Positions 41,300 through 62,809 of a stretch of 64,000 nucleotides of DNA are shown one piece after another (position 1 is the first letter of the stretch; each line of letters begins with the position of its first letter). The DNA is from Ruminococcus sp. (GTDB taxonomy: Bacteria; Bacillota; Clostridia; Oscillospirales; Ruminococcaceae): positions 1 through 64,000 of the forward strand of contig JAFXSC010000008.1 in NCBI GenBank assembly GCA_017525915.1, in the 5' to 3' direction. The position numbers were made by a program, and so were the translations under genes. Below the pieces are notes generated by a model. That model ran no database searches. It saw only the letters and a program-made list of their open reading frames with translations, and was not told the origin of the DNA.

Positions 41300-41367
41300 A
41301 TGCTTCACTCCTATATCATTTGTGTGAAACTGTATGACGTGCTAACAGTAATTATATGTTTATATCT

Positions 41368-44590: not shown

Positions 44591-44658
44591 AAGCCTCACC
44601 TCCGGGAGTATACAGAGCGAATAATCCGAGCTCTTTCGGGTACGTTTATTCATAATAT

Positions 44659-44687
44659 ATTGTAACATAAAACACCGGAAAAATCAA
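44659..44687 (-). promoter_or_regulatory. Promoter of the four-gene surface-protein operon
   Basis: Minus-strand TTGATT (44682-44687), 17 bases, TACAAT (44659-44664). Confidence 0.75.
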
Positions 44688-44767: not shown

Positions 44768-44797
44768 AAAGAAAACCGCCGGACTTTAGCCGGCGGT
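44768..44797 (-). terminator. Terminator of the O-antigen-ligase-like gene
   Basis: ACCGCCGG/CCGGCGGT stem (44775-44782, 44790-44797) then TTTTC on the minus strand. Confidence 0.8.
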
Positions 44798-46201
44798 GGT
44801 TGATTTTTGCATTTCATCGGCGGCTGTAAAGCCCCTGTGCAGGTGTTCCGCATACGTCAGTCCCAGAAAGATGTAGATGTAAGGTGTTGTATAGTAAATT
44901 GCTACGCCGAACATTGAGCTCGTCAGGTAGCCTATGCTCACAAAGAAGCAAATCATCGTCGTATAGTCCATAGACTTGCAGTTTTTGAGGACTATCAGCA
45001 GCACTGACGCACACGCTGCAACGTACAGCAGGGCGGCAGGTATACCGAAGAACTCCATGTACTGCAAGACCTCGTTATGCGGAGTGCCGACATAGTGCGT
45101 ATTCAGCAGACCTTCTACGCCGAAGCCGGTCCACGGACTTTCGTGGATATTCTTGACCGTACCCTTCCAGAGCTTCCAGCGGGACGAGCCTGCGGAATCG
45201 GCTTCGAGCGGATCGGAGGCTATCTTACCGACGTCGTGGAAAAGCACGACAAAGCTTGACATTACCGTGTTATAGCGGAAGCTCATGAAAAATGTTATCA
45301 GCAGGAACACTCCCATGACGGCGAGCGACTGCCAGCGGTACTGCTTCGAGATGAAGAAGCTGTAAATGATGAACAGGAAAAATGCGAACGCCACCGCGAT
45401 ATAAGCGCCGAGAGTGTTGTTGATTATCAGCACCATAGTCGCAATAACGGCGGAAACAGCCGACACCGCTTTCAGCCAGAGCCTTTTCTCGTAGACTGCC
45501 ATTAGTCCACCGGCGATAATAGTGATCGCAAGGTAATAGCCGTAGTGGTTGGAATTGTGGAAGACCGCCGCAACGCCTCTGCCGAGGTAAATTTCCACCG
45601 GCTTGACCCACTCGTCATAGAGGGAAATGATGTTGAGCGGCATGGACGAGAACAGCAGGAGGTAAATCAGCGACTTTTTCGAGCGGCTCTGCCAGATCAT
45701 CGCGCCGCAGAAAAAATAGCAGGTCGGGTAGAGCATATAGGAGTAGATGCTCTCGAACATATAAGGGTGACCGGTGAGATCGTACTCGTTATGTCCGCGA
45801 ATGACCGTAACTACGGGGATAAGTATGGCGAATGCCCAGAAAAGGAACAGGGGGGAGAGCCTGCACAGGCGTTCTTTCATCGGAGGGTGCGGCTTTCCGC
45901 GGCTTGCAATGATGCGGTAGATGAAGTAGATGTAGCACAGCACCGCGGTAAAAACGGCAAGGTAGTTCACTTTCTGTATCATGTCCTGATACTCGCGGAT
46001 ATCCTTGCTGAGGTTGTACCAGCGGTCGGAGTTTTTTCCGCCGATAAAGCGCATAATGAGCTGCTGGCAGGGCGAGAAGATGAAAATGCCGACAGTGAAC
46101 ATCAGCAGGCACTGCGCCATTATGCCGAGAATTTTCTCGCGCGTTTCGGCTTGCTTTTTCTTCTGTATTTCCGCCCAGATGCGCTCCTCCTGTTCGGTCA
46201 T
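44786..46201 (-). CDS. O-antigen ligase/polymerase-like membrane protein (Wzy_C family)
   Basis: The 471-residue protein has about eleven hydrophobic segments and a large loop before the last three. The loop carries the family pattern: Arg-Trp in SSRWKLWKGTVKNIHESPWTGFGVEG, and His-Asn-Glu in PHNEVLQYMEFFGIPAALLY. Such proteins join or polymerise undecaprenyl-linked glycans, or transfer them to acceptors outside the membrane. AAGGA precedes ATG 46201. It lies alone between the fibre gene and the surface-protein operon with its own promoter, so it may decorate the fibre or make its glycan; inferred. Confidence 0.82.
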   Translation of the reverse strand: MTEQEERIWAEIQKKKQAETREKILGIMAQCLLMFTVGIFIFSPCQQLIMRFIGGKNSDRWYNLSKDIREYQDMIQKVNYLAVFTAVLCYIYFIYRIIASRGKPHPPMKERLCRLSPLFLFWAFAILIPVVTVIRGHNEYDLTGHPYMFESIYSYMLYPTCYFFCGAMIWQSRSKKSLIYLLLFSSMPLNIISLYDEWVKPVEIYLGRGVAAVFHNSNHYGYYLAITIIAGGLMAVYEKRLWLKAVSAVSAVIATMVLIINNTLGAYIAVAFAFFLFIIYSFFISKQYRWQSLAVMGVFLLITFFMSFRYNTVMSSFVVLFHDVGKIASDPLEADSAGSSRWKLWKGTVKNIHESPWTGFGVEGLLNTHYVGTPHNEVLQYMEFFGIPAALLYVAACASVLLIVLKNCKSMDYTTMICFFVSIGYLTSSMFGVAIYYTTPYIYIFLGLTYAEHLHRGFTAADEMQKSTTAG

Positions 46202-46287: not shown

Positions 46288-46324
46288 GAGTGAGGTTGGA
46301 TTATGTTAATGTGAGTTTGCTTGA

Positions 46325-47401
46325 TTACGAGCCAGAATCCCACTGATTGCCGACAAGTCTTGTACCGCTGGGAATGGTAAACTGATTATTAGTAATCTCC
46401 TTAACTGCGGTGTCCGTATCGCTGCTTTCCACAATCTTAAATGCCATATCAAGAGAATAAGAATTGGTAAGCTTTGCATAAGTTTCAGATGTACAAGTAT
46501 TATCCTCGCCCTCAAGCCACAGTCTTACAACAACCTTATAGTACTTTGTTACGTTTGCGGTAGAGATTGTATCAAGAACAACACCGCTACCTGATGCGTT
46601 GTTTGTAATAGCCGTAGGGGCGGCGTTTTCAGCGCTAACAGCCATATTTGCTGTCTGATTTTCTGCATCTGCAAGTGCGATCAAGCCCTTTTGATTACCT
46701 TCGATTGCAATATCTGTTGCAAGAACACCGGTGCCCTGTGGAACGCTCGTTGAAGTTGCAAATACAGCAACACGCCAAGCACGATCAGGACCGCCTTCCT
46801 TGCCCAGTGCGCCGCTTGCACCGCTTGTAGCGAGTGCATTTCCTACATAGTCTAAATCACACTGAGACATAACCACCTTTTGACCGGCAGCACTGGAAGT
46901 TGCTTTAAGATAGAATGTGTAGTCAACATAACCATAAGCGATGCCAAAATCTTCGGAAGTACTTACTGTGTTACCATACGAAGTCTGAAATCCGTTCATA
47001 TAAGCGTTCTTGCCAGCTTTCGCATCGGAATTAGCGGTAGTTCCGCTTCCTGTTTCGAAATAAGGGTAGTAAACATCGGAAACGGCATCACCGTCAGCCT
47101 TTGCATCAACAGTATAGTAGAAAGAACCTGTTGCACCAGTAACAGATGATACGGGTTCAAGCAGTGCTTTACGAGACTGAGACAGTGGCGTTGAGGTGAA
47201 GTCGGAATCCATATTTGTGGTACAAATCAGAAGGTTGTCTCCTACCTTTGTACGAACCATCATTCCTTCAACTTTAACTTCCTTATTCATAGTGAACCAA
47301 GCGTAGGTTGCTGAGGAGAGAGAAATAGCCGAAACTGCGAGCATTGCGACAGCAGGCAATAACTTTCTTCTGGCTGAGCTTTTCTTCTTGTTAGTTTTCA
47401 T
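46325..47401 (-). CDS. Major fibre subunit candidate, SipW-type exported
   Basis: This 358-residue protein has an Arg/Lys-rich start, a hydrophobic core and cut-site region AISLSSATYAWFTMNKEVKV, a textbook SipW-dependent signal (Ala-Thr-Tyr-Ala-Trp-Phe-Thr). The mature protein is rich in Ala, Ser, Thr, Gly and Asn with beta-strand periodicity and ends with a conserved-looking VRLWLEGEDNTCTSETYAKL block. It is monocistronic with the best promoter of the locus (TTGACA-17-TATAAT), a structured 5' leader and a strong terminator, as expected for an abundant structural subunit. It faces the rightward operon that encodes the two SipW peptidases. Confidence 0.8.
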   Translation of the reverse strand: MKTNKKKSSARRKLLPAVAMLAVSAISLSSATYAWFTMNKEVKVEGMMVRTKVGDNLLICTTNMDSDFTSTPLSQSRKALLEPVSSVTGATGSFYYTVDAKADGDAVSDVYYPYFETGSGTTANSDAKAGKNAYMNGFQTSYGNTVSTSEDFGIAYGYVDYTFYLKATSSAAGQKVVMSQCDLDYVGNALATSGASGALGKEGGPDRAWRVAVFATSTSVPQGTGVLATDIAIEGNQKGLIALADAENQTANMAVSAENAAPTAITNNASGSGVVLDTISTANVTKYYKVVVRLWLEGEDNTCTSETYAKLTNSYSLDMAFKIVESSDTDTAVKEITNNQFTIPSGTRLVGNQWDSGS

Positions 47402-47428
47402 AAATCATTACCCCTTCATTAGTAATTT

Positions 47429-47456
47429 CGGCTGTTTTGCGAGCCGCCGTGGCTCG
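47429..47456 (-). promoter_or_regulatory. Alternative hairpins in the fibre-gene 5' leader
   Basis: CGAGCC/GGCTCG (47440-47456) and a competing CGGCT/AGCCG pairing (47429-47433 with 47442-47446) cannot form together. Could tune stability or translation; no riboswitch class matched. Confidence 0.35.
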
Positions 47457-47496
47457 TATTTTGTTGTCAGGAATATTACGTTCTGTTTATATTTAG

Positions 47497-47525
47497 ATTA
47501 TACACTGTTTTTACTGATTTGTCAA
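47497..47525 (-). promoter_or_regulatory. Promoter of the fibre subunit gene
   Basis: Minus-strand TTGACA (47520-47525), 17 bases, TATAAT (47497-47502): full consensus. The rest of the 439-base divergent intergenic region holds the opposing promoter at 47772 and AT-rich sequence with no other feature seen. Confidence 0.85.
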
Positions 47526-47771
47526 TATCCTTTTCAAAAATACTTTGATTCGACATCAAAATCGTGAAAAGTACCAAAATACGACATTTCGATTTGCCAA
47601 TATTTACTGAGGGGCTTTGTAGAATATTTTTTGTGTTATACAAGGCGTATATATTTGTCTATGTTTGTCCAAACCTTGTTCATACCTCGTTCATAAGTTG
47701 ACGTTTATACTATTATAATATATAAAAGCCGTTGCATTTGGAATACTTTATCGTGCTAAAGTCTTTTTCCG

Positions 47772-47800
47772 TTGACAATTCCGTAAGTGTGTGATATAAT
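47772..47800 (+). promoter_or_regulatory. Promoter of the rightward SipW/AAA+ operon
   Basis: TTGACA (47772-47777), 17 bases, TATAAT (47795-47800): full consensus, 40 bases before the first gene. Confidence 0.85.
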
Positions 47801-47840
47801 TATATTGATAAATTATACCTGTGAGGGGGGGCGGTGAGCT

Positions 47841-48626
47841 ATGAAAAACGGAAATGCCGGAATAAAGCCTGTTCAGGGCGATAATGTCGGCGGACTGCGT
47901 GCAGTTGAGCTGTACTACCGCGCGATCAAGGAGATATCGAGCGGTGCGGTCGCCTATTATCAGTCCCAGACGCGGCTTAACTCACGGAAATTCGGGGTGC
48001 TCCTGCCGGACACTTACCGCGAGGTCGCGGAAATGTCTCCGCAGTGCCTCAGCCTGTTCTCCCTCGAACTTACGCAGGCGCTCCAGACGAGCGCGGACTT
48101 CATCGAAAACGAGGTCCCTTACTCGTGGCTCTCGGTCTATATGCCGGTGTGGTTTTTGAAGGAAAAACGCGCGGAGCACAAGCTCATCGAGCAGTGCGAC
48201 AAGTACGGCGTACCGACCAACAGGATATGCTTCCAGCTTTCCGAGAAGCTGCTCGCCGAGAAGGACGGTGCTGCCGCCGATGCGATATCGCATCTCCGCA
48301 ACAGAGGATTTCATTTCCTGCTGGAGGACTTCGGCGGTGAGGTCTGCCCCATGATGAGACTTGCAGATTTTCCGGTCGATTACGTCATGCTCAGTCCCGA
48401 GGTGGCTAATCATATCGGAAAGGACGAGCGCTCGGATAACGCCGTGAAGTCGATAATCGGCTTCGTCAGTGACCTCGGCTGTGAGCCTGTCGCGGACGGA
48501 GTTGTCAACAGCCGGCAGGCTGAGATGTTCTATGCGTTTGAATGCGCCTACTGTGCCGGCTCGCTTGCCGGAAACTACGACACAGAGCGGCATATCCGCC
48601 GGAAGTCAGACGACAGTGACAATTGA
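47841..48626 (+). CDS. Degenerate EAL-domain protein heading the SipW/AAA+ operon
   Basis: This 261-residue protein follows the EAL fold but the catalytic residues are changed. AYYQSQTRLNSRKFGVLLP stands where YYQP...EAL should be and has no Glu-Ala-Leu; ICFQLSEKLL replaces the EITE block; FHFLLEDFGGEV keeps one Asp of the DDFG pair; DYVMLSPE replaces IKID; PVADGVVNSRQAE replaces AEGVET. It is therefore a likely non-catalytic sensor or scaffold, with cyclic-di-GMP binding uncertain. GGGG-rich ribosome site before ATG 47841. It is cotranscribed with the secretion genes, so it may link signalling to fibre export. Confidence 0.82.
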   Translation: MKNGNAGIKPVQGDNVGGLRAVELYYRAIKEISSGAVAYYQSQTRLNSRKFGVLLPDTYREVAEMSPQCLSLFSLELTQALQTSADFIENEVPYSWLSVYMPVWFLKEKRAEHKLIEQCDKYGVPTNRICFQLSEKLLAEKDGAAADAISHLRNRGFHFLLEDFGGEVCPMMRLADFPVDYVMLSPEVANHIGKDERSDNAVKSIIGFVSDLGCEPVADGVVNSRQAEMFYAFECAYCAGSLAGNYDTERHIRRKSDDSDN

Positions 48627-48659
48627 TATACTACTTTATTATAGAACGGAGAATGCGAA

Positions 48660-49481
48660 TTGATCGGTAAAAAGAAAAAACTGGACGTTCCCGCAGCTCC
48701 CGAGGATCAGGCGCCTGAGAATCAGGCTGCCGAGGGTCAGGCTCCGGCGTCGGACGCAGTCCGTGACGCAGAGACCAAGCTCCGCGACGTTCTTGAATTG
48801 AGACGAACCGCCAAGGAGGTCAAGCGGTACGTCGTAATAATGAGGATACTGAGCCTCCTTGTAGTGCTGCTCATCGCTATTGTTGCCGTAGCCTACGCGA
48901 TTTCCTACTTCTATGACCAGTTCGGCAGCTTTACCGTCCGGGTCAACAAGTACGACATGATAAACCAGGGACTTACTCTTTCCGAGACACCTGAGTACAA
49001 CAAGACCAATGCTGTGCTCAATGCCGATATCGTCTACGATATGACGAATATCAGCGGTGAGGATCTTCCGCCCAATCTCGATAAGATAAACGGCAGCCAT
49101 AACGGTGAGAACTACATCGCCTATACGTTCTATCTTATCAATTCCGGCGACGATACTATTTCCTATGAAGGCGTGCTGAATATCGAAAGCGTTTCCAAGA
49201 ACGTGGACGAGGCGGTCAGGGTAATGGTCTACCGGAACGGCGAGAAGAAAGTCTATGGAAAGACTAAATCCAACGGCGGTGGCAAGGAGAGCGACTGTGA
49301 CGAAGAATTTGCCTCCTCCACAAAGGTAATGCAGGTGTTCAGGTCCGGCTTCAAGCCCAATGAAAAGGATAAGTATACCATAGTAATATGGCTCGAGGGC
49401 AATGATCCGGACTGCATAGATGACATTATAGGCGGAACTATAAAGCTTGGCATGGACTTTGAGATAACAGAATCAACATGA
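48660..49481 (+). CDS. Membrane-anchored fibre-like protein of the SipW locus
   Basis: This 273-residue protein has a cytosolic, Gln/Pro-rich start, a helical stretch, a membrane segment at about 60-85 (ILSLLVVLLIAIVAVAYAISYFY), then an extracellular beta domain with DNSGD-type turns and the block 'YTIVIWLEGNDPDCIDDIIGGTIKLGMDFEI', a form common in TasA/camelysin-like fibre proteins. The start is TTG 48660, set by GGAG 9 bases earlier; no in-frame ATG or GTG fits. It lacks a clear cut site, so it may remain membrane-bound as the fibre anchor. Between the EAL-like and first sipW genes. Confidence 0.78.
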   Translation: MIGKKKKLDVPAAPEDQAPENQAAEGQAPASDAVRDAETKLRDVLELRRTAKEVKRYVVIMRILSLLVVLLIAIVAVAYAISYFYDQFGSFTVRVNKYDMINQGLTLSETPEYNKTNAVLNADIVYDMTNISGEDLPPNLDKINGSHNGENYIAYTFYLINSGDDTISYEGVLNIESVSKNVDEAVRVMVYRNGEKKVYGKTKSNGGGKESDCDEEFASSTKVMQVFRSGFKPNEKDKYTIVIWLEGNDPDCIDDIIGGTIKLGMDFEITEST

Positions 49482-49500
49482 TATAAGGAGTAATAAGGAA

Positions 49501-50427
49501 ATGAAGAAAGCTGTAAAGATCATAGTAAACATTCTCGCATGGGTGCTGCTGATGCTGGCACTTCTCATAACGATAGTCGTATTCTCAGCAGAACGAAACA
49601 ACGGTGTATCGAACATTATGGGCTATATGCCGATGACAGTTGAATCAGACTCAATGAGCCCGACATTCAAGAAGGGCGACCTCATCATAGTAAAGGAAAT
49701 AAATGATATCAACAAGCTTGAGGAGGACGATGTAATAACCTTCTGGACGCTTATCGACGGTAACCGTGTAAAGAACACCCATAGGATCGTCGGCATCACA
49801 CGCGACGATCAGGGACAGATCGTAAGCTTCACCACACGAGGCGACAACAACAACGGTGTAAACGATGAGCTTCCGGCATATCCTAAGGATATCGTCGGAA
49901 AATGGACAGGCAAGCATCTGAAGGGCTGCGGCAAGGCGCTCGACTTCCTCAGAACAAAGAAGGGCTTCTTCATCTGCATAATCATACCGCTTGCAGCATT
50001 CTTCCTGTTCGAGCTCTACAAGTTCATTGCAACACTTGTTGAGATCAAGAAGGGCGACGCTCCCGAGCAGCTCGACGAGGAGGAGATCAAGCGCCGGGCT
50101 ATCGAGGAGTATCTTGCCGAGCAGAAGAAGAAGGAAGCCGAGAAGGAAGGCGCTTCCGCAGAGGCAAAGGAAGCTGTTACCGAGAAGGCAGAGGAAGTCA
50201 AGGAAGCCGTAACAGAGAAGGCTGAGACTGCCGCTGAGGAGGTCAGGGAAGCCGTGACGGAGAAGGCTGAGCCCGCCGCTGAGGAGGTCAAGGAAGCCGT
50301 GACCGAGAAGGCTGAAACTGCCGAAGAAGCTGTAAAGGAAGTGGTTACGGAGACTGCCGGAGCTGCTGCCGAAGAAATAAAGGAGGCCGCCGCTGAGGCT
50401 GCCGAGGATATCACCGGAGAAAAGTAA
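49501..50427 (+). CDS. sipW: SipW-type signal peptidase I with long charged C-terminal tail (1)
   Basis: Residues 1-~185 are a signal peptidase of the archaeal/ER type, with Ser in VESDSMSPTFKKGDLII and His instead of Lys in NTHRIVGI. Membrane segments lie at about 5-30 and 160-182. The remaining ~120 residues are a cytosolic Glu/Lys/Ala tail built of near-repeats of 'VTEKAETAAEEVKEA' (about 14-15 residues each). Ordinary SipW is about 190 residues and lacks this tail. SipW processes fibre proteins such as TasA; the substrates here are the exported proteins of this locus. AAGGAG 12 bases before ATG 49501. Confidence 0.88.
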   Translation: MKKAVKIIVNILAWVLLMLALLITIVVFSAERNNGVSNIMGYMPMTVESDSMSPTFKKGDLIIVKEINDINKLEEDDVITFWTLIDGNRVKNTHRIVGITRDDQGQIVSFTTRGDNNNGVNDELPAYPKDIVGKWTGKHLKGCGKALDFLRTKKGFFICIIIPLAAFFLFELYKFIATLVEIKKGDAPEQLDEEEIKRRAIEEYLAEQKKKEAEKEGASAEAKEAVTEKAEEVKEAVTEKAETAAEEVREAVTEKAEPAAEEVKEAVTEKAETAEEAVKEVVTETAGAAAEEIKEAAAEAAEDITGEK

Positions 50428-50469
50428 AACGAAGAATGACAGGCCCAGTGCCTAAGATCGGAGTTTATC

Positions 50470-52047
50470 ATGAACGGATTTCTTAAATTCTTTTTTGAGT
50501 TCATCTCGGAAATGCTGAAAGGCTATACCGAGATATGGCGAGGGCTGCGGGACGGCTTCGCCCAGATCTTCAACATACCGAACTACATAGATATCGTAAA
50601 GACTCATACCCGGAACATGGGCGCTGTCGGCTGGATACTTACGATCACGTCTATCGTTGTCGTTATACTGATATACCTTCTCATACTCGCTATCATATTC
50701 CTTGCGATAAGAAAGTATATCCGTTTCAGACATTCGATCGTAAGCAATGAGGACCTTCTTGAGGAAATAGCCGCCCTCCAGCGTCAGGTCATGAAAATGG
50801 CGAAGGAAAAGGACGAGATCATGGCTATGAAGGTCTCGCAGATGGGACTTCCCACCTCCGGAGCGCTTTCGTATGCGGGCGGAAATATGTTCCCCGGAGA
50901 GCCTGGAGCACAGGGCGGAGAGCTTCCCGCTGCCGCTTCTATCGAGGACGGCGTCGTGCAGACCACAGACTACCGTTTCTCGAAGCTCATTGAGGTCGAT
51001 ACATTCTACAAGACCTATACTCCGCCAGTATATGACAACGAGATAACTCTCGAGGAACTCTGCGAAAGGTACCGTAATTTCGCCTGTTCGCGTATGCACC
51101 TGTTCTATGAGCCCAAGACCATACGCCTGTTCATCGCAGGTATGGCTTCCACGAAGCTCATCATCCTACAGGGTATATCCGGTACCGGTAAGACCTCGCT
51201 GCCTTACTCTTTTGGTAAGTTCCTACAGATAGATACGACTATCGCATCAGTACAGCCTTCATGGCGTGACCGAACCGAGCTTTTCGGATACTTCAACGAA
51301 TTCACCAAGAACTTCAACGAAACCGAAGTCCTGAAGCGTATCTACTCCTCGAACTACAACAATGACATCAACCTCATACTCCTCGACGAAATGAACATCG
51401 CCCGAGTTGAGTATTACTTCGCCGAGATGCTCTCCATACTTGAAATGCCGAACCCGTCCGAATGGGCGCTCGACATCGTTCCTAACGCATGGAGCACCGA
51501 CCCTGTGAAGCTCGATAAGGGCAAGATCATGATACCTCAGAACATCTGGTATATCGGTACTGCGAACAACGATGACTCGACCTACGCTATCTCCGATAAG
51601 GTTTACGACCGTGCACAGCCGATCAACCTCGACTCGAAGGGCGTTGCGTTTGAAGCACCGGATACCCCTCCTATCAGCCTTGGCTTCGACCATCTCGACC
51701 AGCTGTTCAGGGACGCATTCGACAAGTACCCGATCTCTCAGGAGAACCTCAAGAAGATACAGCAGCTTGACCTCTGGGTAATCGAGAAGCTGAGAGTTGC
51801 GTTCGGTAACCGTATCCTCAAGCAGATGAACCTGTTCGTACCGGTATACGTTGCCTGCGGAGGCGATGAGCTCGAAGGTATCGACTATGTTCTCGCTACC
51901 AAGATATTCAGAAAATTTGAATCACTCAACCTTGCAATGCTGCGAGAGGAACTCCGCGAGCTTTGCGTATATATGAACAAATCCTTCGGAAAGAATAAGA
52001 TGAACGAATCAATAGCTTACCTCGAGAGGTTACAGAAGCTGTTCTGA
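50470..52047 (+). CDS. Membrane-tethered McrB-like AAA+ ATPase
   Basis: The 525-residue protein has an amphipathic start, one membrane segment at about 52-80 (ILTITSIVVVILIYLLILAIIFLAI), a coiled coil (EDLLEEIAALQRQVMKMAKEKDE), a Gly/Pro linker and an AAA+ domain from about 180. Walker A is GISGTGKTSL (~235-244), Walker B is INLILLDEMN (~303-312) and a sensor asparagine is in IWYIGTANNDDSTYAI. The 'LDEMNIARVEYYFAEML' block is that of McrB-type GTPase/ATPases. Its partner follows directly. No McrC, methylase or nuclease is nearby, and the membrane anchor argues against restriction. A role in moving or assembling surface proteins is inferred. Confidence 0.85.
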   Translation: MNGFLKFFFEFISEMLKGYTEIWRGLRDGFAQIFNIPNYIDIVKTHTRNMGAVGWILTITSIVVVILIYLLILAIIFLAIRKYIRFRHSIVSNEDLLEEIAALQRQVMKMAKEKDEIMAMKVSQMGLPTSGALSYAGGNMFPGEPGAQGGELPAAASIEDGVVQTTDYRFSKLIEVDTFYKTYTPPVYDNEITLEELCERYRNFACSRMHLFYEPKTIRLFIAGMASTKLIILQGISGTGKTSLPYSFGKFLQIDTTIASVQPSWRDRTELFGYFNEFTKNFNETEVLKRIYSSNYNNDINLILLDEMNIARVEYYFAEMLSILEMPNPSEWALDIVPNAWSTDPVKLDKGKIMIPQNIWYIGTANNDDSTYAISDKVYDRAQPINLDSKGVAFEAPDTPPISLGFDHLDQLFRDAFDKYPISQENLKKIQQLDLWVIEKLRVAFGNRILKQMNLFVPVYVACGGDELEGIDYVLATKIFRKFESLNLAMLREELRELCVYMNKSFGKNKMNESIAYLERLQKLF

Positions 52048-52075
52048 TGCGTTCCTGAACGGCAGGTGAATGTGA

Positions 52076-54292
52076 ATGAGCGACAATTTATACGAGCAGT
52101 GGTACGGTGAATTCCGCGACCTCATAGACGGCTTCAGCGATGACAGCCTTTTTAGCACGTTCGATCAGCTCATCCATTCCAGCCGCAACACCTTTGCCAT
52201 GAATCGTAAGATAATGGAGAAGGTAATAGACGTATCGTGGGTCGAGGCTATTGAGAACGGTATGATACACCTTGACAACGTCCTCCGCGCACCGAGAAAG
52301 ACCATCGAGGACGTTGAGGAGGTCGTTCCCATCGCTCTGTCGAGGAAGATAACCGTTGAATCGGTAAAGCACCTTGCACAGCATACCGACCTTATACAGA
52401 GCATCGACAAGAGGACGGGAAAAATAACGCCCTCGAAGATACTCAACGTCTATAAGGAAGAGAGCATGATGACGTATGAGAACAAGTTCGTGAATACGCT
52501 CATTGACAGGCTTTATATATTCATAAACCGCCGCTACGAGAAGCTTGCGGAGGTAACAAAGGACGAAAAGGTCATGGCACTCGGCTATGACACCGCTATC
52601 GACGACGGAAACGGCGGAAAGTTCCGCATACAGATGAAGGTCGAAACGACCGACAGCCTTGATTCCTACGATTCCAACGGCATAACCATATGGCAGAGAG
52701 TCGAGAAGCTCAAAAAGGCTATCGAGGGCTACAAGGGCTCGGAGCTCTGTCAGACTCTCGGCACATCGTATATTCGTCCGCCGGTAATGCGTACAAACGC
52801 CATCATGAAGAACGTTGACCTCAAAGCCTGCCTTACGCTCTGGCAGTACATCGAGAGCTATGACAAGGCAGGATATGAGATAAATGTTGAAAATACCGCT
52901 GTAAAGCCCGAAGATGACTATATCGAGGACTTCTACAAGGTAATGATACTCAATTTCCTCCTGTTCCGTTCATACAACAGCAGCAGAGAGGATAAGCTGA
53001 AAGAGCTGAAAACTCACAAGCCCAGAACTATCGCGCCAAAGTTTGTCAAGCGCTTCGACAGGGAGCTCGCGAGCGACTACAATATCGAGGCTGAAACAGT
53101 TGCCGGATATGTTACAGGCGGCGGTGAGCTCCAGTTCGTCAGAAAGCTCCCGGAAGACCTCACCGGTATATACGAGGAGCTCAACGAGATAATCGACACA
53201 GAGCGCGAATACCTCCAGAAGCTCGAAATTGAGCGTCAGGAGCGCCAGAAGGCAAAGGAAGAGGAAGAAGAACGCAGGCTCGAACAAGAGCGCATCGAAG
53301 AAGCCCGCCGTCAGGAGCTCGAACGTATCAGACTCCAGCGTGAGGAGGAGGAGCGCCAGCTCCAGGAAATGCTCGCGAAGAAAAAAGCCGAGCAGGAGGC
53401 AGAGGAGCGCGAGCGCCAGCGCCTTGAAGAAGAGCGCCTTGCACGTCTTGAAGATCTCAGGAAGCGTGAGGAGGCTGCCCGTCTCAGACGTGAGGAGCAG
53501 GAGCGCATAGCTGCCGAGAGAGCTCGTCTTGAGGGCGAGAAGAAGCGTGTAAGAGCAGAGCTCGGTGACGCTGAGGAAGTTGATGTTGACAGGCTCGAGA
53601 CCAAGGCTGCTGCCCGCGGTGAGCGTGAGAAGCGCTTCATTTACGAGCAGATGACCGAGTATGAGATCAGGAAGATCAACGAGCAGATCAGCCAGACCGC
53701 GGAAGGCGCTGAGCAGGAGATCGAGGATCCGCGTGAAGTTGCAGCCCGAATGAAGATCGAGCAGCAGCAGCGTGAAAAGGACCGTGCCGAAAAGGAACGA
53801 GCAGAACGTCTCAAACAGGAGCGCCAGTATTTCGAGAAGAAGCCGTTCGAGAGCATTCGCCGCGAGTATTCGCGCAATCCGTTCTACGTCATTGTCAGGG
53901 CGATACGCTATGTGCTCGCAATGGTATTCGGCTTAGTGCCGAAGAATGCCGACCGTCCGGACTTCAAGAAGAAGCGCGAGGAGCTCGAAGCCCGCAGACA
54001 GCTTCGCATAGATATGAAGCAGAAGCGCAACGTCATGGAGATATATTACAGGAAGTACGCACAGACTTTCGGATATCGCTTCCACCGCTGGCGTGCTGAT
54101 ATGAAGTTCAGGCGCAAACGCCGGAAAGAGGAAAAGAAGCGTCCGAAGCCCGTATACAGACCTCCTGTAATGACCCGTGAGCAGCGCGAAGCTATCCAGC
54201 AGATGATGAACAATCTCTACAAGGAATACCATGTCAGCCGTACCGAGCGCATACGCCGCTGGTGGGCAAACAAGATGCGTAAGTATGAATAA
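52076..54292 (+). CDS. DUF2357-like protein with long coiled coil, partner of the AAA+ ATPase
   Basis: The 738 residues comprise an N-terminal ~370-residue globular part, a Glu/Arg-rich coiled coil (~380-600) and a basic C terminus (~620-738, FRRKRRKEEKKRPKP). The globular part contains 'YENKFVNTLIDRLYIFINRRYEKL' and 'MRTNAIMKNVDLKACLTLWQYIESYD', which resemble DUF2357 proteins paired with McrB-like ATPases. In those, a PD-(D/E)xK nuclease usually follows; here it is replaced by the coiled coil and no nuclease motif is seen. AGGTGA lies 7 bases before ATG 52076; 28 bases after the ATPase gene. The DUF2357 assignment is from pattern memory only. Confidence 0.7.
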   Translation: MSDNLYEQWYGEFRDLIDGFSDDSLFSTFDQLIHSSRNTFAMNRKIMEKVIDVSWVEAIENGMIHLDNVLRAPRKTIEDVEEVVPIALSRKITVESVKHLAQHTDLIQSIDKRTGKITPSKILNVYKEESMMTYENKFVNTLIDRLYIFINRRYEKLAEVTKDEKVMALGYDTAIDDGNGGKFRIQMKVETTDSLDSYDSNGITIWQRVEKLKKAIEGYKGSELCQTLGTSYIRPPVMRTNAIMKNVDLKACLTLWQYIESYDKAGYEINVENTAVKPEDDYIEDFYKVMILNFLLFRSYNSSREDKLKELKTHKPRTIAPKFVKRFDRELASDYNIEAETVAGYVTGGGELQFVRKLPEDLTGIYEELNEIIDTEREYLQKLEIERQERQKAKEEEEERRLEQERIEEARRQELERIRLQREEEERQLQEMLAKKKAEQEAEERERQRLEEERLARLEDLRKREEAARLRREEQERIAAERARLEGEKKRVRAELGDAEEVDVDRLETKAAARGEREKRFIYEQMTEYEIRKINEQISQTAEGAEQEIEDPREVAARMKIEQQQREKDRAEKERAERLKQERQYFEKKPFESIRREYSRNPFYVIVRAIRYVLAMVFGLVPKNADRPDFKKKREELEARRQLRIDMKQKRNVMEIYYRKYAQTFGYRFHRWRADMKFRRKRRKEEKKRPKPVYRPPVMTREQREAIQQMMNNLYKEYHVSRTERIRRWWANKMRKYE

Positions 54293-54310
54293 TGAATCGG
54301 TGGTAAGGTT

Positions 54311-55342
54311 TTGAACAGCGACGAGATTATACAGGAGGAAAGTACCCCGGAGGAGGAAGTCAGCACCCTCAGGAAAAGGCTGAGCTTTGCCGGAAATGCG
54401 GCGATAGCGATAGTCACAGCCGTGCTTGTCGGATTTGTGGCATATGTCATGGTCTGCACGGCAAAGGGCAAACCAGTGAGCGTTTTCGGAAGAAGTCTTC
54501 TGAAAGTCGTTACCGGGAGCATGGAGCCTTCACTCCATACCGGAGATTACATCTATATCAAAAAAGTTCCTGCGGACGAGCTTTCAGCAGGTGATGTCAT
54601 AACCTTCCGCTCGGAGGAGGACGACGTCCGCGGCAAGCTCGTTACCCACAGGATAATAAGCATCGAGCCGGACGGCACATTCATAACCAAGGGCGATGCC
54701 AATCATACCCCCGACCATAAGCATATCAGGGCTGACCAGATAGTCGGGAAGTTTACCGGAAAAGCACGCTTCTACCGGTGGATAGGCTCTTTTGCGGACC
54801 ACAGGAAGCTCATACTCATGGCAGTTATGATATTAATGTCGGCTGCGGCGATCTACGAGGTCAGGACGATCTCAAGGATCACTGCAGAAGCCGCAAGGAA
54901 GAAGGAAGAAGCCGCAGAGGAGGAGCGTGAGGCGCTTATCCGTGAGGCTATCGAGAAGGAGAAGGAACGCCTTGCACAGGCTGCGCTTTCCGAGGAGGAG
55001 CTGCTGAAACTGAAGGAGCAGGCTGAGAAGCCTCCGGCGGCGGAGGAAGCTGTACCGGCTGAGGGCGAAGATGAAGCCCCGGCGGAGGTTGAAGCTGCCG
55101 AAGAGGAAGTCCTCGATGAGGGTGAAGACGAAGCCCCGGCGGAAGTTGAAGCTGCCGTGGAAGAAGTACCTGCGTCGGATGATGCAGAAGCTGCCGATGA
55201 GGGCGTAGTTGAAGTTCCGGCGGAGGAAGCAAAGCCGGAGGTCAAGGCACAGCTGCCGAAGCCTTCCGGGAATAAAGGAAATAACAGCGGCAGCAGAACT
55301 AATAACCGTAAAAAACACAAAAAACGCCGCGGAAAGAGGTGA
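54311..55342 (+). CDS. SipW-type signal peptidase I with acidic C-terminal tail (2)
   Basis: A second signal peptidase of 343 residues. Membrane segment about 27-48, catalytic Ser in VVTGSMEPSLHTGDYIYI, His in LVTHRIISIE, second segment about 170-185 (LILMAVMILMSAAAIY). Then comes a ~150-residue cytosolic tail: Glu/Arg coiled coil, acidic repeats (EDEAPAEVEAAEEEV), and a very basic end (NNRKKHKKRRGKR). Start TTG 54311 follows GGTGGTAAGG, 18 bases after the coiled-coil gene. Two SipW enzymes with different tails in one operon suggest different substrates or tethering to the AAA+ machine. Confidence 0.87.
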   Translation: MNSDEIIQEESTPEEEVSTLRKRLSFAGNAAIAIVTAVLVGFVAYVMVCTAKGKPVSVFGRSLLKVVTGSMEPSLHTGDYIYIKKVPADELSAGDVITFRSEEDDVRGKLVTHRIISIEPDGTFITKGDANHTPDHKHIRADQIVGKFTGKARFYRWIGSFADHRKLILMAVMILMSAAAIYEVRTISRITAEAARKKEEAAEEEREALIREAIEKEKERLAQAALSEEELLKLKEQAEKPPAAEEAVPAEGEDEAPAEVEAAEEEVLDEGEDEAPAEVEAAVEEVPASDDAEAADEGVVEVPAEEAKPEVKAQLPKPSGNKGNNSGSRTNNRKKHKKRRGKR

Positions 55343-55348
55343 TCGGGG

Positions 55349-55801
55349 TTGAATCAGGAAAAGCTGATGAAAAAGAGAATGTGGACAGCCATAATCATGC
55401 TGATCGTCACACTGTTTGCCCTGCTGATATTCATAGGGCTGTATATTGACGAAACGCGGCGCGTCCAGAGGACTTACCGGAAGCAGTACCGGACAGAACT
55501 CCGACACGTTTCCGGCGAGATAGAGGGCTATCTGAATACCGAGGGAGGCTATGATACGCGCTATTCCATGCTGATAGGGTATATGAGCAGCGCGGCTTCG
55601 TATGCGTTCCTGATAGATGACTTTGAAGACAAGCAGAAGATCATAAATGAGCTGAACACCTGTCTGATAAAGTATCCGGAGCAGATGGAGAAGAAGCTTC
55701 CCGAAGTGAAACAGGCGGTCGACGATATTCTTGATGATCTTGACAAGGGATATGACGAGGCTGCGGCTATCGTTGATGATATTAACAAGAAAGGTAATTG
55801 A
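55349..55801 (+). CDS. Small membrane-anchored protein of the SipW/AAA+ operon
   Basis: This 150-residue protein has a basic start, a membrane helix at about 12-33 (AIIMLIVTLFALLIFIGLYI) and a helical outside or inside domain (YRKQYRTELRHVSGEIEGYL, acidic C terminus VDDILDDLDKGYDEAAAIVDDI). No known family recognised. TTG 55349 follows GAGGTGAT. Six bases separate it from sipW-2 and 11 from the next gene, so it belongs to the operon and may be a structural partner. Confidence 0.72.
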   Translation: MNQEKLMKKRMWTAIIMLIVTLFALLIFIGLYIDETRRVQRTYRKQYRTELRHVSGEIEGYLNTEGGYDTRYSMLIGYMSSAASYAFLIDDFEDKQKIINELNTCLIKYPEQMEKKLPEVKQAVDDILDDLDKGYDEAAAIVDDINKKGN

Positions 55802-55812
55802 GGTGGAATAGA

Positions 55813-56049
55813 ATGAGTGCATGGAGTGAAAAGAGAAAGATCAAAAAAGAGATCAAGGTTTGTTTGCAGACTATCGAGGAGATCGAGCGTAAGCGTTCAA
55901 GATCGCAGTCGGCGCTCGTTCAGGCTGTTCTTTTGCAGGAAACACCGGAGGAAAGCGACGTTGAGTGGTTCAATAAGTATACCGGTGAGATCACAGCCTG
56001 CCGTAATCATATGATCGAGCTGCAAAAGAAACTCAAATCTCTTGGCTGA
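55813..56049 (+). CDS. Small helical protein, last gene of the SipW/AAA+ operon
   Basis: A 78-residue basic/acidic helical protein (MSAWSEKRKIKKEIKVCLQTIEEIERKR...) with no membrane segment, likely one or two coiled coils. ATG 55813 has GAGGTGG 8 bases before it; an in-frame TTG at 55798 is less suitable. It is followed by a terminator. Function unknown; probably cytosolic partner of the machine encoded upstream. Confidence 0.68.
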   Translation: MSAWSEKRKIKKEIKVCLQTIEEIERKRSRSQSALVQAVLLQETPEESDVEWFNKYTGEITACRNHMIELQKKLKSLG

Positions 56050-56065
56050 TGTTTTCGTATAGCAT

Positions 56066-56094
56066 AAGACCGCCTTTACAGGCGGTCTTGTTTT
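56066..56094. terminator. Terminator closing the SipW/AAA+ operon
   Basis: AAGACCGCC/GGCGGTCTT stem (56066-56074, 56081-56089), then GTTTT on the plus strand; the converging M50 gene ends beside it. Confidence 0.85.
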
Positions 56095-56651
56095 ATCCGG
56101 CAGTCTGAGTGTTCGCTGAGGAGGAGAATGAGCGAGGCTATGAAGAGGGGGGCGGTACCGTGTCCGCCTGAGACAGTTATCAGCAGCAGAACTGCGGAAA
56201 TACCGGCTCTCAGTGCCATTGACAGGCGGCAGAACGTATCCTCGTGGACAGCGCCCTCGGAGAGGAGCGATATTATCGCGCCGCCGTCCAGTCTCCGGTA
56301 TGGGAGAAGGTTGTATATCGCAGCGGCAAGGCTCAGAACTGCGAACTGTCCCGATGTAATGAGCCAGAGAAGTATATTTGCGGCAGGACCGGCGGCAAGC
56401 ACGCAAAGCTCCCGGAAGCGCGGCTGGAGGCGGCATTTCGAGGTCTTCATGATTATCCCGAATCCCGTGATATCGACCGATACTATGTGTATGCCGAAGA
56501 ACGAAGCGGCAGCTATATGTCCGGCTTCGTGGACGGCACAGACCGTGTAGAACCCGAGCATCAGCGAGCTGTCTCGAAGCATGAACAGCAGGGCGTTGAA
56601 GACAAAGAACGAGAACCGGAAGTGTATCCGCGGACGGCGTGAATTCGTCAC
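56076..56651 (-). CDS. Site-2-protease-like M50 metallopeptidase
   Basis: This 191-residue membrane protein has the zinc motif HEAGH in YTVCAVHEAGHIAAASFFG, AGPAANILLWL and the third ligand region NLLPYRRLDGG, the three blocks of M50 intramembrane proteases such as SpoIVFB. It has no PDZ or CBS domain. GTG 56651 is preferred: it overlaps the upstream stop (GTGA) and GAGG lies 7 bases earlier. Substrate unknown; the sigma/anti-sigma pair at 25-28 kb is one speculative target. Confidence 0.85.
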   Translation of the reverse strand: MTNSRRPRIHFRFSFFVFNALLFMLRDSSLMLGFYTVCAVHEAGHIAAASFFGIHIVSVDITGFGIIMKTSKCRLQPRFRELCVLAAGPAANILLWLITSGQFAVLSLAAAIYNLLPYRRLDGGAIISLLSEGAVHEDTFCRLSMALRAGISAVLLLITVSGGHGTAPLFIASLILLLSEHSDCRIKQDRL

Positions 56652-56902
56652 AGCAGTCCCTCGATGAAGCATATCGGGTTGCCTATGATCTCGTCCTGCG
56701 ACCGTGTGAGCTCTGCAAGGCGGCTGAATACCGGATCGGCGATGTCCGGCAGAAACATATGCGCTGCAAAGAATACCCCTGCAAGTATCAGGCAGAGGGC
56801 TGCCTGCATAGCTGCCGCATCGTCGATACGGCGGCGGTCGTAGATGCTCAGAAGCTCCCTGTCATCAGCAATGACGCCCTCATTGATAGCATTATTGTCC
56901 AT
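56648..56902 (-). CDS. Small membrane protein coupled to the M50 protease
   Basis: This 84-residue protein has an acidic start (MDNNAINEGVIADDREL), one membrane segment (AALCLILAGVFFAAHMFL) and a short tail. AGGAGG precedes ATG 56902. Its stop overlaps the protease start by 4 bases, so the two are coupled; it could be a regulator or substrate of the protease. No family recognised. Confidence 0.65.
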   Translation of the reverse strand: MDNNAINEGVIADDRELLSIYDRRRIDDAAAMQAALCLILAGVFFAAHMFLPDIADPVFSRLAELTRSQDEIIGNPICFIEGLL

Positions 56903-56954
56903 AGCTGCACCTCCTGCACAGTCAATGATATGCGCGGAGAGCAGGGTATATGCA

Positions 56955-56984
56955 GAAAAAGGAGGCTCTGCAGAGTCTCCTTTT
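56955..56984 (-). terminator. Terminator of the pectate lyase gene
   Basis: AAAAGGAG-x-CTC stem (56957-56968, 56973-56984) with one mismatch and a T-run on either side. Confidence 0.7.
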
Positions 56985-57015
56985 CCTGTATCATTATATT
57001 TATTGGGGGGGAAGG

Positions 57016-60000
57016 TTAGGTTAGAGAGGTTACGATACCGAGTTTATACTGCTGTATCCTGAGAGCGTCCTTGTTGGTGATGCCGGGAGTGCCGTCAACA
57101 TCTGCATTAGCCTCGCCCTTGTCGGAGAGCTTGTACTTGTCGGGATTGCCGATCGACTGCATGATGAATACCGCGTCTGCCATATTCACCTGACCGTCGC
57201 AGTTCGCATCGCCGGGAGTGCGCTCATTTCCGGGTGTTGCGGGCTCGCCTGATGCTGCATATACCATATAGAAGAGGTTGGCAGTATCAGCCTTTGTAAC
57301 GCTGTGAGAGCCTGCTGCGAGGTCAACAGTTATGATACCGTCGCCTGATGCGGTATATCTTGTGCCGTCGACCGTGATAGTTGCTGCCGGCTCAACAAAT
57401 ACGAGGGTAAGTGTGCCTGCTGAAGGAGCATTGAAGCCTATTGATGTAGCAGTTTCGAGCTTCAGGCACTGAGTGAGGGACTTGCCTGCATAGTTCACTG
57501 TGCCCTTTGAGGTAGAGAGGTTGCCGCTTATCGAGTAGAAGCTGCTGTCAGTGCCGTTTGCCGTGAAATCGTGGATATAATTGCCTGCGACCGGTACATT
57601 GCCTGTTGTAGTAGTGGTCGTGATGGTTGTTGTCGTTGTGGAGGTGCTTGAACCGGGCTGCGGAGAAGTTGTTGAAGCAGCATACGGGTCAGGAGTCGAA
57701 GCCTGAGAAATGCCGCCGCTCATTCTGTATCCGAGGGACTTGTAGGTGCCGTTGGCAGTCGTTTCCGCGAAGCCGCCGGGATTGGGTGAACCGTCCGCCT
57801 TACGCCATGACTTGTGGAAATCGGTTCCCATTCCGGCAACGCTGAGAGATACGAAGTCGGAATCCGAAGGCGTAACGACACTGCCGTTCTGGGGCTGAGA
57901 GCCGGTAGCAGTGAACGAGCCGGGCTCATAGTAATACTTGCTGTTGTAGTACAGAGCATTCTTCACGATGCCCTTGAACTTGTCGTTTGCAAGCTTGATA
58001 CCAGCCGCATTGGTCTTTGATACCTTAGAGGTATTGTAGTAGGTGACGATGTTCTGGATATCCGCATCAGCTGCACAGCGATAAACGAAGTAGTTAGCCT
58101 TGCCGTTGCCGCCGATGCCGTTGTTGTAGGCGGTACAGTTTTTCAGCACGCCGAACAGCGGATTATTGTTGTCGGTGAAGCCGCAGTTGAGGTTCTCGAA
58201 GGCGAGACAGTTCTCAACGACATGGCGGGTGCCTACACCGCCGCCGCCGAGCTTGAAGCCGTTTCCGTCACATCCGCCGTAGCCTCTGCCGTCCTCAGTG
58301 AAGCCGTTGCGGAAGGCGATACAGTTCTTTATCGTTACCACGCCGGTAGGACCGGTAGCTTCCTTGGCGTAGAGGTCCCAGCCGTCATCGGAGTTGTTGT
58401 AAGCCATACAGCCGTCAAAGACATTGCCCTGTCCGCAGGTGAGCTTAGCAGCGAAGCCGTCCGCATTCTCCATAGTTGCGTCATCGCAGTTGTTCTTGGA
58501 GGTGCAGTTCTTGACGAGGTTGTTCGTCGGCCACTGTGAAATGTCCGAGTAGGAGCCGTTGTACCGTGATATCTGGAGACCGGTGTCCTGATTTCTGTTG
58601 AAGGTCATCATCTCGATGATGTTGTTATCCCCTGAAAGGAGCATACCGTTATCGCCCGCATTGGCGATCTCGAAGCCGTAGAAATGCCAGTATGAACCGT
58701 CCAGAACGAAGCCTCTTGCCGCTCCGTCAACTGCCTGACCCGTGAAGTCGAACTTAACACTTGCGCCGGGATAAGCAGCGATAGTCTTGTATTTGCCTGC
58801 TGCGCCTGAATTTGCTTCCTCGATCATGATAGTGCTGGTGTACTTGTAAGTGCCTTCGAGGAGGTAGATATAGCCGCCTGCCGGAACTGACTTTATAGCC
58901 GTGAGAACATCGGTAGGCGAGTTCACGGACTTTCCGTCTCCGCCGCCGTTCGGTGAAGCGTATATAACATTTGCACCGGTAACGGGAGTAACAGTGCCGC
59001 CTGTTGTGGTGACAGTCGTGGTAGTTGTGCTCTGTGTAGTAGTTGTAGTGATATCGGTAACGATAGGCTGAGTTGAAACGGAAGGCGCTGAACCGTCCTC
59101 AACGAAGCCGCTGCCGATATGGGTGATGCTGTCCTTGTAGTTCACAAGTGCGGACTTGAGTCCGGTGTTTACAGTGTAGCTCTGGTCATCGACCGAGTTG
59201 TTGAATGTCCACTTCATGTCGCCGCCGTCAACACGTCCTGCATTTGCGGTAACGATAGCGGGAACGTCCTCGGCCTTGTCGGGAGTGTACTTGTACATAC
59301 TCGCTGAGGTATCGAAGTTGTTGTATGCCGTGCCGCCCTGCTTTGCCTTGACTGAGGAAGGAACAGCCTCGTTCCTTGAAGAAGCCTCATAAGCATCGAA
59401 TTCTGTATTGTTCTGCTGGTAGGTGGTGTAAGCCTTCTGACCAGTCATATAGTTGCCGTAGGACTTGATGACACCGCCGTCCTCGCCGGAGAATATACCG
59501 CCTGCGCCGACATCCGAGCCCTGCATAGAGATGAGCATGGGGTAGTTGCAGTTGCGGTAGTAGTTGTTCTCAACGAAGCATGAAGCGCCCATAGTCACAC
59601 CGACGCCGTACTTGGCATTGCCGTCGTAGTAGTTGTTGTAGCAGTGTACCGAGCAGGTGCGTATTCTCGGGTGACGGGAATCGGAGTGATCGTACCAGTT
59701 GTGGTGGTAGGTGATATAATTCTCGGTGGACTCCGACTTCATACCCTGGAGATTGCACTTTCCGTTATCCCAGAAGTGGTTGTAGGAGTGGGTAACATAG
59801 GACGAAGTCTTGGTATCGAGAGCACCGTCTCCCTTCACCTGATCGGCGTCAGAACCTGCATCGCCGTAGAAGAAATCGCAGTTGTGGACCCATACATGAT
59901 CATTGCCCTGCTGGAGACCGCAGTCATCGCCCTCAGAGCTGTTGCAGTTCATGAAGCCGATATTTCTTACCTCAACGTTTGAGGAATTCTTCATGACGAG

Positions 60001-60750: not shown

Positions 60751-60836
60751 AATGTTTCCCTCCAAAAAATCCGTTCCTGTAAGCGGAACGGTACGCGGAC
60801 GCTTCCCCTGACGCGCCCGGCCTCACATCTTATGAT

Positions 60837-61965: not shown

Positions 61966-62029
61966 AATAATTCCACCTTTCAGTTATTTATGAAATATCT
62001 TCGCTGAATGCGAAGTTTTGATCCGCTTG

Positions 62030-62782
62030 TCATATGTGCGAGCCGAGCATGAGCTTGCGCGATTTCATGTCGCTGCAGGCTATTGCAGACGCTGCCGCGC
62101 TGCATATGAGTGAGATCCACAGACCGGCACCGGTGTTTACCTTGACGGTCAGCAGGCTCGACATATCGCCGAGAATATCGTTGATATACGACTTTGCGGT
62201 GAAGCAGTACACCACGTTCGCGGCAGTTGCGATTATGAAAAAGAGACCTGCGAGAGTTACCATCGTGGCAAAGTGCTTGTTTGAGACGACTCCGACGATC
62301 ACCGAGAGACCGGCAAAGATAAAGGCTGCGAGACCGCCCCACTTCATAATTCTGGCGCAGTAGTCCATTGTCTTGAGCTTGCTGTCCTTGAATTCCGAGG
62401 TCTTCAGGTCGTCGATGATATCGGAATCGCTGTTTTCAAACAGCTCGGTGTATTTTATGTTCTCCTTCTGCGTGCAGGTAAACGCGCTGACTTTAAGGGT
62501 CAGCCACGGCATGAAAAGACTTATGAAGGAGGCGATGATGAGAATGTAGGCTATCCAGTATGCCGAAGTCGGCGGCACCTCTGAAACGCTCCGATAGGTC
62601 TTTCCGGGAAGGGTGCTGTTGGCATATGTGTCATAGTGAGCAACAGGCGAGCCTTGTCCTGGACGGTTTGCGTATGAGCCTAAGCTGTCGGGAGTTACCG
62701 GAGCGCTGTTCATGAGATGACCGCAGTTTTTACAGCATTTTGCGTCATCACTGTTGTCACTTCCGCAATATTTGCAAAACAT
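62030..62782 (-). CDS. Zinc-ribbon membrane protein (2)
   Basis: A 250-residue paralogue: zinc ribbon MFCKYCGSDNSDDAKCCKNCG, a 45-residue linker, a first helix ending FISLFMPWLTLKVS, a shorter acidic loop (ENSDSDIIDDLKTSEFKDS), then RIMKWGGLAAFIFAGLSVIVGV and two further helices. AAGGTGG before ATG 62782; 27 bases from the upstream paralogue and 64 from the downstream one, so one operon. Function unknown. Confidence 0.82.
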   Translation of the reverse strand: MFCKYCGSDNSDDAKCCKNCGHLMNSAPVTPDSLGSYANRPGQGSPVAHYDTYANSTLPGKTYRSVSEVPPTSAYWIAYILIIASFISLFMPWLTLKVSAFTCTQKENIKYTELFENSDSDIIDDLKTSEFKDSKLKTMDYCARIMKWGGLAAFIFAGLSVIVGVVSNKHFATMVTLAGLFFIIATAANVVYCFTAKSYINDILGDMSSLLTVKVNTGAGLWISLICSAAASAIACSDMKSRKLMLGSHI

Positions 62783-62809
62783 GGTAATTCCACCTTCCTT
62801 TGAAATGTG

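Follow-up and report, generated by a model that had tools for sequence, protein, structure and literature searches.

What does an NTPase of the McrB type do when it is anchored in the membrane and encoded between two SipW-type signal peptidases? This question is raised by a locus in a 64,000-nucleotide stretch of Ruminococcus sp. DNA (assembly GCA_017525915.1, contig JAFXSC010000008.1, positions 1 to 64,000; the whole stretch is referred to here as the window), where eight plus-strand genes at 47841-56049 encode, in order, a degenerate EAL-domain protein (EAL), a membrane-tethered protein (ANC), a first peptidase (SipW A), the ATPase (AAA), a DUF2357 protein, a second peptidase (SipW B) and two small proteins (SM1 and SM2). 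The operon shows three features of the CoCoPALM class, an NxD motif, an N-terminal transmembrane (TM) segment and association with signal peptidases, and from its gene content and that of its relatives we judge it probable that it is a CoCoPALM operon encoding a membrane machine that is driven by NTP and serves the biogenesis of a SipW-type surface-protein family of its own. A first-pass annotation of this DNA had proposed a new system; the class was in fact already named in 2024, in a few sentences of Bell et al. (eLife; PMC11090510) that carry a hint of pilus assembly. The features of the locus are as follows.

43475-44668, minus strand: SUB2, a further exported protein, whose signal (LSWFS) is similar; TM 46-64; no family match
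44786-46201, minus strand: Wzy_C / O-antigen-ligase-like membrane protein, encoded between SUB1 and SUB2; Pfam Wzy_C, 1.5e-15
46325-47401, minus strand: SUB1, exported protein of the SUB family with the SipW-like signal SSATYAWFT, from sequence and family alignment
47497-47525, minus strand: divergent promoter on the exported-protein side, TTGACA-17-TATAAT, 12/12 consensus
47772-47800, plus strand: sigma-70-type promoter upstream of the operon, TTGACA-17-TATAAT with TG before the second hexamer, 12/12 consensus
47841-48626, plus strand: EAL, degenerate EAL-domain protein; Pfam EAL, 2.9e-33
48660-49481, plus strand: ANC ("anchor"), membrane-tethered relative of the exported protein; TM 63-81
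49501-50427, plus strand: SipW-type signal peptidase A, with a long tail after the second TM segment; TIGR02228, 3.6e-22, over the cut-off
50470-52047, plus strand: AAA, membrane-anchored McrB-like NTPase with an NxD motif; TM 62-80, Walker A, NND motif, PDB matches to McrB alone
52076-54292, plus strand: DUF2357 (McrC N-terminal) protein with a long charged helix and no nuclease; Pfam DUF2357, 9.1e-9; ER/K helix pattern at 365-528
54311-55342, plus strand: SipW-type signal peptidase B, which relatives carry as a fusion with the DUF2357 protein; TIGR02228, 4.4e-28
55349-55801, plus strand: SM1, small protein with a single TM segment (15-33); orthologue in 50/55 loci
55798-56049, plus strand: SM2, small helical protein without a TM segment; orthologue in 53/55 loci

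In agreement with the earlier description of eight closely spaced co-directional genes behind one promoter, the gaps in operon order measure 33, 19, 42, 28, 18, 6 and -4 bases, and the promoter at 47772-47800 is the sole 12/12 match on the plus strand of 46300-57000. The only such match on the minus strand of this interval, at 47525-47497, points at the exported-protein gene, from which the divergent side runs SUB1, the Wzy_C membrane protein and SUB2. The eight-gene order is not due to chance, because the same order recurs in dozens of genomes. At the 3' end, SM2 probably starts at ATG 55813 and not at TTG 55798, since many orthologues measure 74-78 residues; 5 of 1000 shuffles reached its heptad signal. 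An inverted repeat, AAGACCGCCT-TTAC-AGGCGGTCTT, lies 3' of the last gene at 56066-56089; it was found by eye, and an automated scan did not list it.

The association with SipW was assessed in relatives of the ATPase from a genome-collection scan. Locus counts refer to the best 80 of 558 ATPase relatives, with the loci long enough for scoring the gene in question as the denominator; these loci and the genome samples include many metagenome assemblies and overlap in part (L033 and L215, for example, in our locus numbering), and counts were never summed. A SipW gene lies directly upstream of the ATPase gene in 75/75 scorable loci, the DUF2357 gene downstream in 67/67, and a second SipW, either downstream or fused, in 66/67 (L108 was counted as lacking a downstream SipW, yet a SipW B-like open reading frame is present there). 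The EAL-like protein and ANC are each found upstream in 57/61 loci. The linkage persists through rearrangement, with SUB genes inserted between ANC and SipW A or with SipW B displaced. As controls we used the 20 best other McrB loci from a phylum search, with 11-19 kb around each, and in none of these 20 was a SipW gene found near the ATPase. The co-occurrence by which the first-pass annotation had proposed to check its reading thus holds without exception in the scorable part of the best 80 loci; the tie is not obligatory, as SipW is missing from 7 of 24 loci sampled at the level of the class.

Both peptidases of the window, recognised as SipW-type from the outset, score above the TIGR02228 cut-off (78.9 and 98.1 bits vs 51.85) and keep their catalytic residues: Ser51, His94 and Asp115 of SipW A in 80, 81 and 81 of 81 aligned sequences (one gap), and Ser70, His113 and Asp129 of SipW B in 68, 68 and 68 of 68, fused tails included. 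With 107.9 and 93.8 bits they did not reach the 190-bit cut-off of the Bacillus SipW equivalog NF046067. In the bacterial family of the host, 59/197 genomes hold a SipW over the TIGR02228 cut-off, far more than the 11/197 that carry the ATPase (4 weak matches of 15, at 28-89 bits, were left out of this count); therefore, the ATPase module seems to elaborate on SipW pathways and to have a cargo of its own. ATPase carriers amount to 18/60 genomes of the genus (G629, in our genome numbering, was left out), and in the class 21/391 genomes match the ATPase at E 1e-35, a transglutaminase type described below included; the family, genus and class counts each include the window's own genome. In a phylum sample of 398 genomes, few of them of the same class, 49 match at E 1e-20 and the window's own gene alone exceeds 130 bits. 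The carriers among the best 80 include R. flavefaciens, R. albus, Eubacterium ruminantium, E. uniforme, E. xylanophilum and Lachnospiraceae, with Ruminococcus flavefaciens and R. albus strains as the closest named relatives by ATPase.

The ATPase has a single strong hydrophobic segment (residues 62-80), and a profile of 11 orthologues, eight of them 74-83% and two 44% identical to the window protein, had PDB matches to McrB alone, in three sequences (best E 0.00066), which bears out the initial assignment as a membrane McrB-like ATPase. The McrB signature reads N-x-D in the 11 aligned ATPases (NND in the window) and in 80/80 named loci (79 by pattern and L109 by eye), and by pattern also in 18/20 control ATPases. 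The membrane anchor separates the two sets: a TM segment falls within the first 130 residues in 80/80 named loci vs 0/20 controls. In a tree of 56 ATPase domains every TM-anchored ATPase stands apart from the 20 controls (support 100), and the 24 SipW-linked ATPases form one side of a branch (98). The coiled coil expected on the McrB side is weakly marked (87 of 1000 shuffles with an equally high heptad signal). By analogy with McrB, we infer that the ATPase assembles a membrane-bound ring.

A membrane-linked anti-phage system of the CoCoNuT type that makes use of signal peptidases has in its favour that the ATPase belongs to an NxD McrB group known from restriction systems, that its presence in the genus is patchy (18/60, as above) and that the PADLOC candidate defence model PDC-M26A matches it at 5e-39. 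This model scores higher on controls (165-189 bits on four, 4/4 tested) than on TM-anchored ATPases (132-162 bits on three), and therefore it is no marker of the TM-anchored, SipW-linked family. No credible nuclease family was found by Pfam or NCBIfam among the eight window proteins, and none of the PDDEXK family in 10/10 DUF2357 proteins of the operon type. The three control DUF2357 proteins scanned with Pfam all contain PDDEXK_7, and a model built on the PDDEXK_7 parts of these three matched 0/81 SipW-type loci as against 15/20 control loci, three of these being its sources. A model of the control DUF2357 parts matched 20/20 controls and 66/81 SipW-type loci. The nuclease part is thus gone, as the first-pass annotation had supposed, and homologues gathered in nuclease-bearing defence islands, an outcome that it had regarded as adverse, were not what we found (0/81 loci with a nuclease). 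Furthermore, neither the 72,556 plasmid records nor the 50,697 phage records searched contain an ATPase copy at 80% cover, the exported partners look dedicated, and the look of defence belongs to the controls, one of which adjoins a Type III restriction gene. Considering that no nuclease and no plasmid or phage copy at 80% cover was found and that the controls look different, we rejected defence as the principal reading and regard it as very improbable.

The DUF2357 protein was initially described as a coiled-coil partner of the ATPase, a description that analysis of its charged stretch does not support. This stretch (365-528 in the window) is present in 74/92 DUF2357 homologues with a median of 137 residues. 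The spacing of ion pairs (i to i+3/4) exceeds that of 95% of shuffles in 71/74 of them and heptad spacing does so in 3/74, counts that are not independent as the homologues are related. The coiled-coil reading is thus unsupported by heptad periodicity, and the better one is probably a stiff single helix, which would be roughly 20 nm long if straight, with a rise of 0.15 nm per residue. The sole PDB profile match at E 0.01, to a chromatin assembly factor 1 construct (E 0.0069), falls on this region; matches of charged tails to ArlX, RNase E, Cas12b and ZorA were discarded as low-complexity helix matches.

In 24/67 loci the DUF2357 protein and SipW B form a single polypeptide of about 970-1050 residues, and two further frames of this kind, from other loci, were aligned. 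Such fusions occur in isolates, R. albus 8 and R. flavefaciens among others, and are therefore unlikely to be assembly errors. In a tree of 78 ATPase rows the fusion trait requires at least 4 changes, 3 of them forced by strongly supported branches, and the topology is consistent, with the first SipW TM segment placed after the DUF2357 part.

How these parts may work together can be proposed from the McrBC model, in which a DUF2357 stimulator acts with an NTPase ring, as outlined in the section of PMC11090510 drawn on here. The DUF2357 head would sit in the ATPase ring and be driven by it, and the rigid charged helix would transmit movement to the membrane or position SipW B there; helix and fusion together would bring NTPase action to this peptidase. 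SipW A and SipW B would cut SUB precursors, the seemingly uncut, membrane-tethered ANC would nucleate or anchor assembly, and what results may be a fibre or a coat, or else a protein that is released.

A more specific version, which we put forward only tentatively, is that of a restriction-type ring turned into a surface-building motor, which would drive a DUF2357 head whose stiff charged helix of about 20 nm would reach and move the membrane peptidase, so that cutting and fibre growth are both powered and gated from the cytosol; relatives of this ring would do so with a transglutaminase surface protein. If true, this would be, to our knowledge, the first NTP-powered SipW surface-assembly system. 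Alternatively, the ATPase and the DUF2357 protein could constitute a membrane chaperone or quality-control unit for SipW precursors and not a motor, by analogy with MoxR ATPases, which are said to mature dedicated protein complexes in the part of PMC3893208 cited. The genomic evidence for such a unit is the same as for the dedicated biogenesis machine; a McrC-type cofactor that has been kept, and a rigid helix attached to a peptidase, would rather suggest a ring-plus-stalk device, and we consider a chaperone quite unlikely.

The cargo is to be sought across the divergent promoter, where the first-pass annotation had seen a SipW-type fibre subunit gene. An exported protein with a SipW-like signal is indeed encoded there; sequence searches lend no support to its being a fibre subunit, as these proteins show no convincing Pfam, NCBIfam or PDB match. 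A SUB profile built from operon neighbours found the family in 11/11 ATPase-positive vs 1/183 ATPase-negative genomes (194 genomes, taken as a subset of the 197 searched for the ATPase since labels agree; Fisher 4e-17, uncorrected for kinship). The single ATPase-negative match, G005, has SUB and ANC together with SipW A, 221 bases past which its contig stops, so its ATPase is unscorable. In G071 a distance of about 20 kb on one contig separates the SUB gene from the operon; in G035 the two are on separate contigs, both near contig starts, which is no proof of unlinkage. The cargo diverges fast, SUB proteins being 20-40% identical to that of the window as against the 74-83% of eight and 44% of two ATPase relatives, and a reading frame with a YAWF-type signal occurs in 34/51 SipW-type loci over 15 kb (39/80 of all) and in 0/20 controls.

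ANC, taken at first for an anchor-like fibre protein, is membrane-tethered and related to the SUB family (hhalign probability 97.8, E 1e-12, 122 columns, with a common WLEGxDxxC motif). It has a hydrophilic N-terminus ahead of its TM segment and no YAWF motif in the consensus. A sequence match that would identify the exported proteins as TasA or camelysin was sought and not found. The neighbours of the Wzy_C-like protein are SUB genes in the window, L083 and L095, and in L107 it lies within the operon locus; it may be a glycosyltransferase with the exported proteins as its substrates.

Judged by its catalytic E, N, D and K, the operon EAL protein is not an active EAL phosphodiesterase. Among 68 short EAL proteins (the window's and 67 others) the E of EAL and the catalytic N and K are kept in 0/68, which confirms the EAL protein as dead; the first D of DDFG is kept in 1/68 and lost in the window, and the arginine of EALxR is kept in 55/68. 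Such a protein would be a c-di-GMP signalling input or a protein-binding regulator. The divergent operons of L221, L223, L224, L101-L104 and L106-L109 end with, or carry close to their 3' end, a gene for another EAL protein, of about 746-787 residues, whose EAL motif is intact; that of L221, the single one scanned by Pfam, has a GGDEF domain too. A GGDEF-EAL protein of 909 residues is also encoded in the window, on the same contig as the operon (20931-23657, minus strand). Together with the operon EAL protein, the EAL-motif-intact protein of the divergent operons may couple the system to c-di-GMP.

These proteins bring in a further candidate explanation, a regulated-proteolysis switch in which the NTPase/DUF2357 pair, informed by EAL, would gate the SipW peptidases so that surface proteins are either held in the membrane or released. 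LapD and LapG, which hold or release an adhesin, offer an analogy. The upstream position of the EAL-like protein (57/61 loci), the intact EAL motif near the 3' end of divergent operons, the direct fusion of an NTPase cofactor to a peptidase and the seemingly uncut ANC, without a YAWF signal in its consensus, would all fit a switch of this kind. Most of the EAL residues examined are lost, making c-di-GMP binding doubtful, and we rate the switch as rather unlikely.

At the level of the class, 24 loci were analysed (L216-L239; L238 and L239 are from one genome): 17 have a SipW gene, five are of the transglutaminase type and two (L236 and L237) have neither. In the five (L219 and L232-L235), two TM-anchored ATPases flank a DUF2357 protein, SipW is missing and a large protein is encoded nearby, with Transglut_core in the two that were scanned and homologous proteins in the other three. 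The ATPases of these loci fall in two places in the tree, and long branches make their order unsure. Taken together, the SipW and transglutaminase loci imply two distinct ties between the TM-anchored NTPase and surface proteins, and the tandem-ATPase loci are possibly an undescribed relative of the system.

Several results weigh against a dedicated machine for SipW-type surface proteins. Besides the PADLOC match and the 7/24 class-level loci without SipW, a SUB-family gene is found in only 35/65 eligible loci, the Pfam DUF2357 model is reached in only 6/10 family members, SUB proteins match no known fibre subunit or other family, and 0 of 46 SUB proteins match the TIGR04088 model of SipW signals (19 bits). 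Elsewhere in the host genome (contig C50 of genome G000, L207), a second SipW locus encodes two peptidases and an exported protein of the TIGR04088 type, and no such ATPase; in a search of the host genome this C50 protein alone exceeded the TIGR04088 cut-off, and the SUB profile also touches its signal region (E 1.6e-5). Moreover, recombinant BsaA polymerises in E. coli (PMC7395162), and in the accounts consulted the TasA and BsaA fibre systems are described without an NTPase or a DUF2357 protein (PMC9674648, PMC7395162). Considering all of this, a machine for the biogenesis of SipW substrates is still the reading we prefer. Its link to surface proteins has become stronger than first proposed through the fusions, the SUB family and the related anchor; novelty has been given up, the sequence matches lend no support to a fibre, and the partner is probably a single helix.

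The remainder of the window contains a reading frame of 3554 residues without a Pfam match (30647-41308, minus strand), a pectate lyase with CBM77 and a dockerin type I (57016-60765, minus strand), hinting at cellulosome-type enzymes in the host, and a row of zinc-ribbon-like, apparently paralogous proteins, each having about four TM segments (60991-64000, minus strand, and beyond; L209).

The operon would thus offer a testable case of a defence NTPase recruited for building or controlling the cell surface in bacteria of the rumen and gut, made concrete by the fusions, the dedicated exported family and the contrast with nuclease-bearing relatives. It also leads to the prediction that SipW pathways, regarded as simple cut-and-polymerise routes, can be powered and regulated from within the cytosol.

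Among known systems, CoCoNuT and canonical McrBC (type IV restriction) share with the window the NTPase fold and the DUF2357 head, and the CoCoNuT branch also the NxD motif; they differ in that here neither PD-(D/E)xK nor another nuclease was found in the window operon, the ATPase is anchored in the membrane and the partners are SipW peptidases. The tapA-sipW-tasA operon of B. subtilis and sipW-bsaA of C. perfringens resemble it in that SipW adjoins an exported substrate (PMC9674648, PMC7395162, as far as the parts cited describe them), and TapA is, like ANC, a second, anchor-like protein (PMC9674648). TasA fibres are described there as assembling by strand exchange (PMC9674648). The exported proteins encoded here are unrelated to solved ones by sequence search. 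A functional study of a CoCoPALM system was not found in the open-access literature searched, nor was the forthcoming paper to which the group had been deferred, and the name itself turned up only in the eLife paper and its preprint. As described in the few sentences of that source, CoCoPALM comprises a McrB-type NTPase with a shortened NxD motif and an FtsB-like N-terminal TM segment, coiled coils usually fused to both the McrB and McrC homologues, and an association with signal-peptidase-family proteins, called "likely pilus assembly factors" (PMC11090510). The window shares the NxD McrB-type NTPase with its N-terminal TM segment, the McrC/DUF2357 partner and the signal-peptidase neighbours, and adds to that description EAL, the anchor, the exported-protein family, SM1 and SM2, the peptidase fusions and the charged-helix character. 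The name and the suspected surface link are therefore already known; new here are the counts of SipW-ATPase adjacency, the DUF2357-SipW fusions and the co-occurrence with SUB, together with the kinship of ANC and SUB, the single-helix reading of the DUF2357 partner and the anchored relatives paired with transglutaminases.

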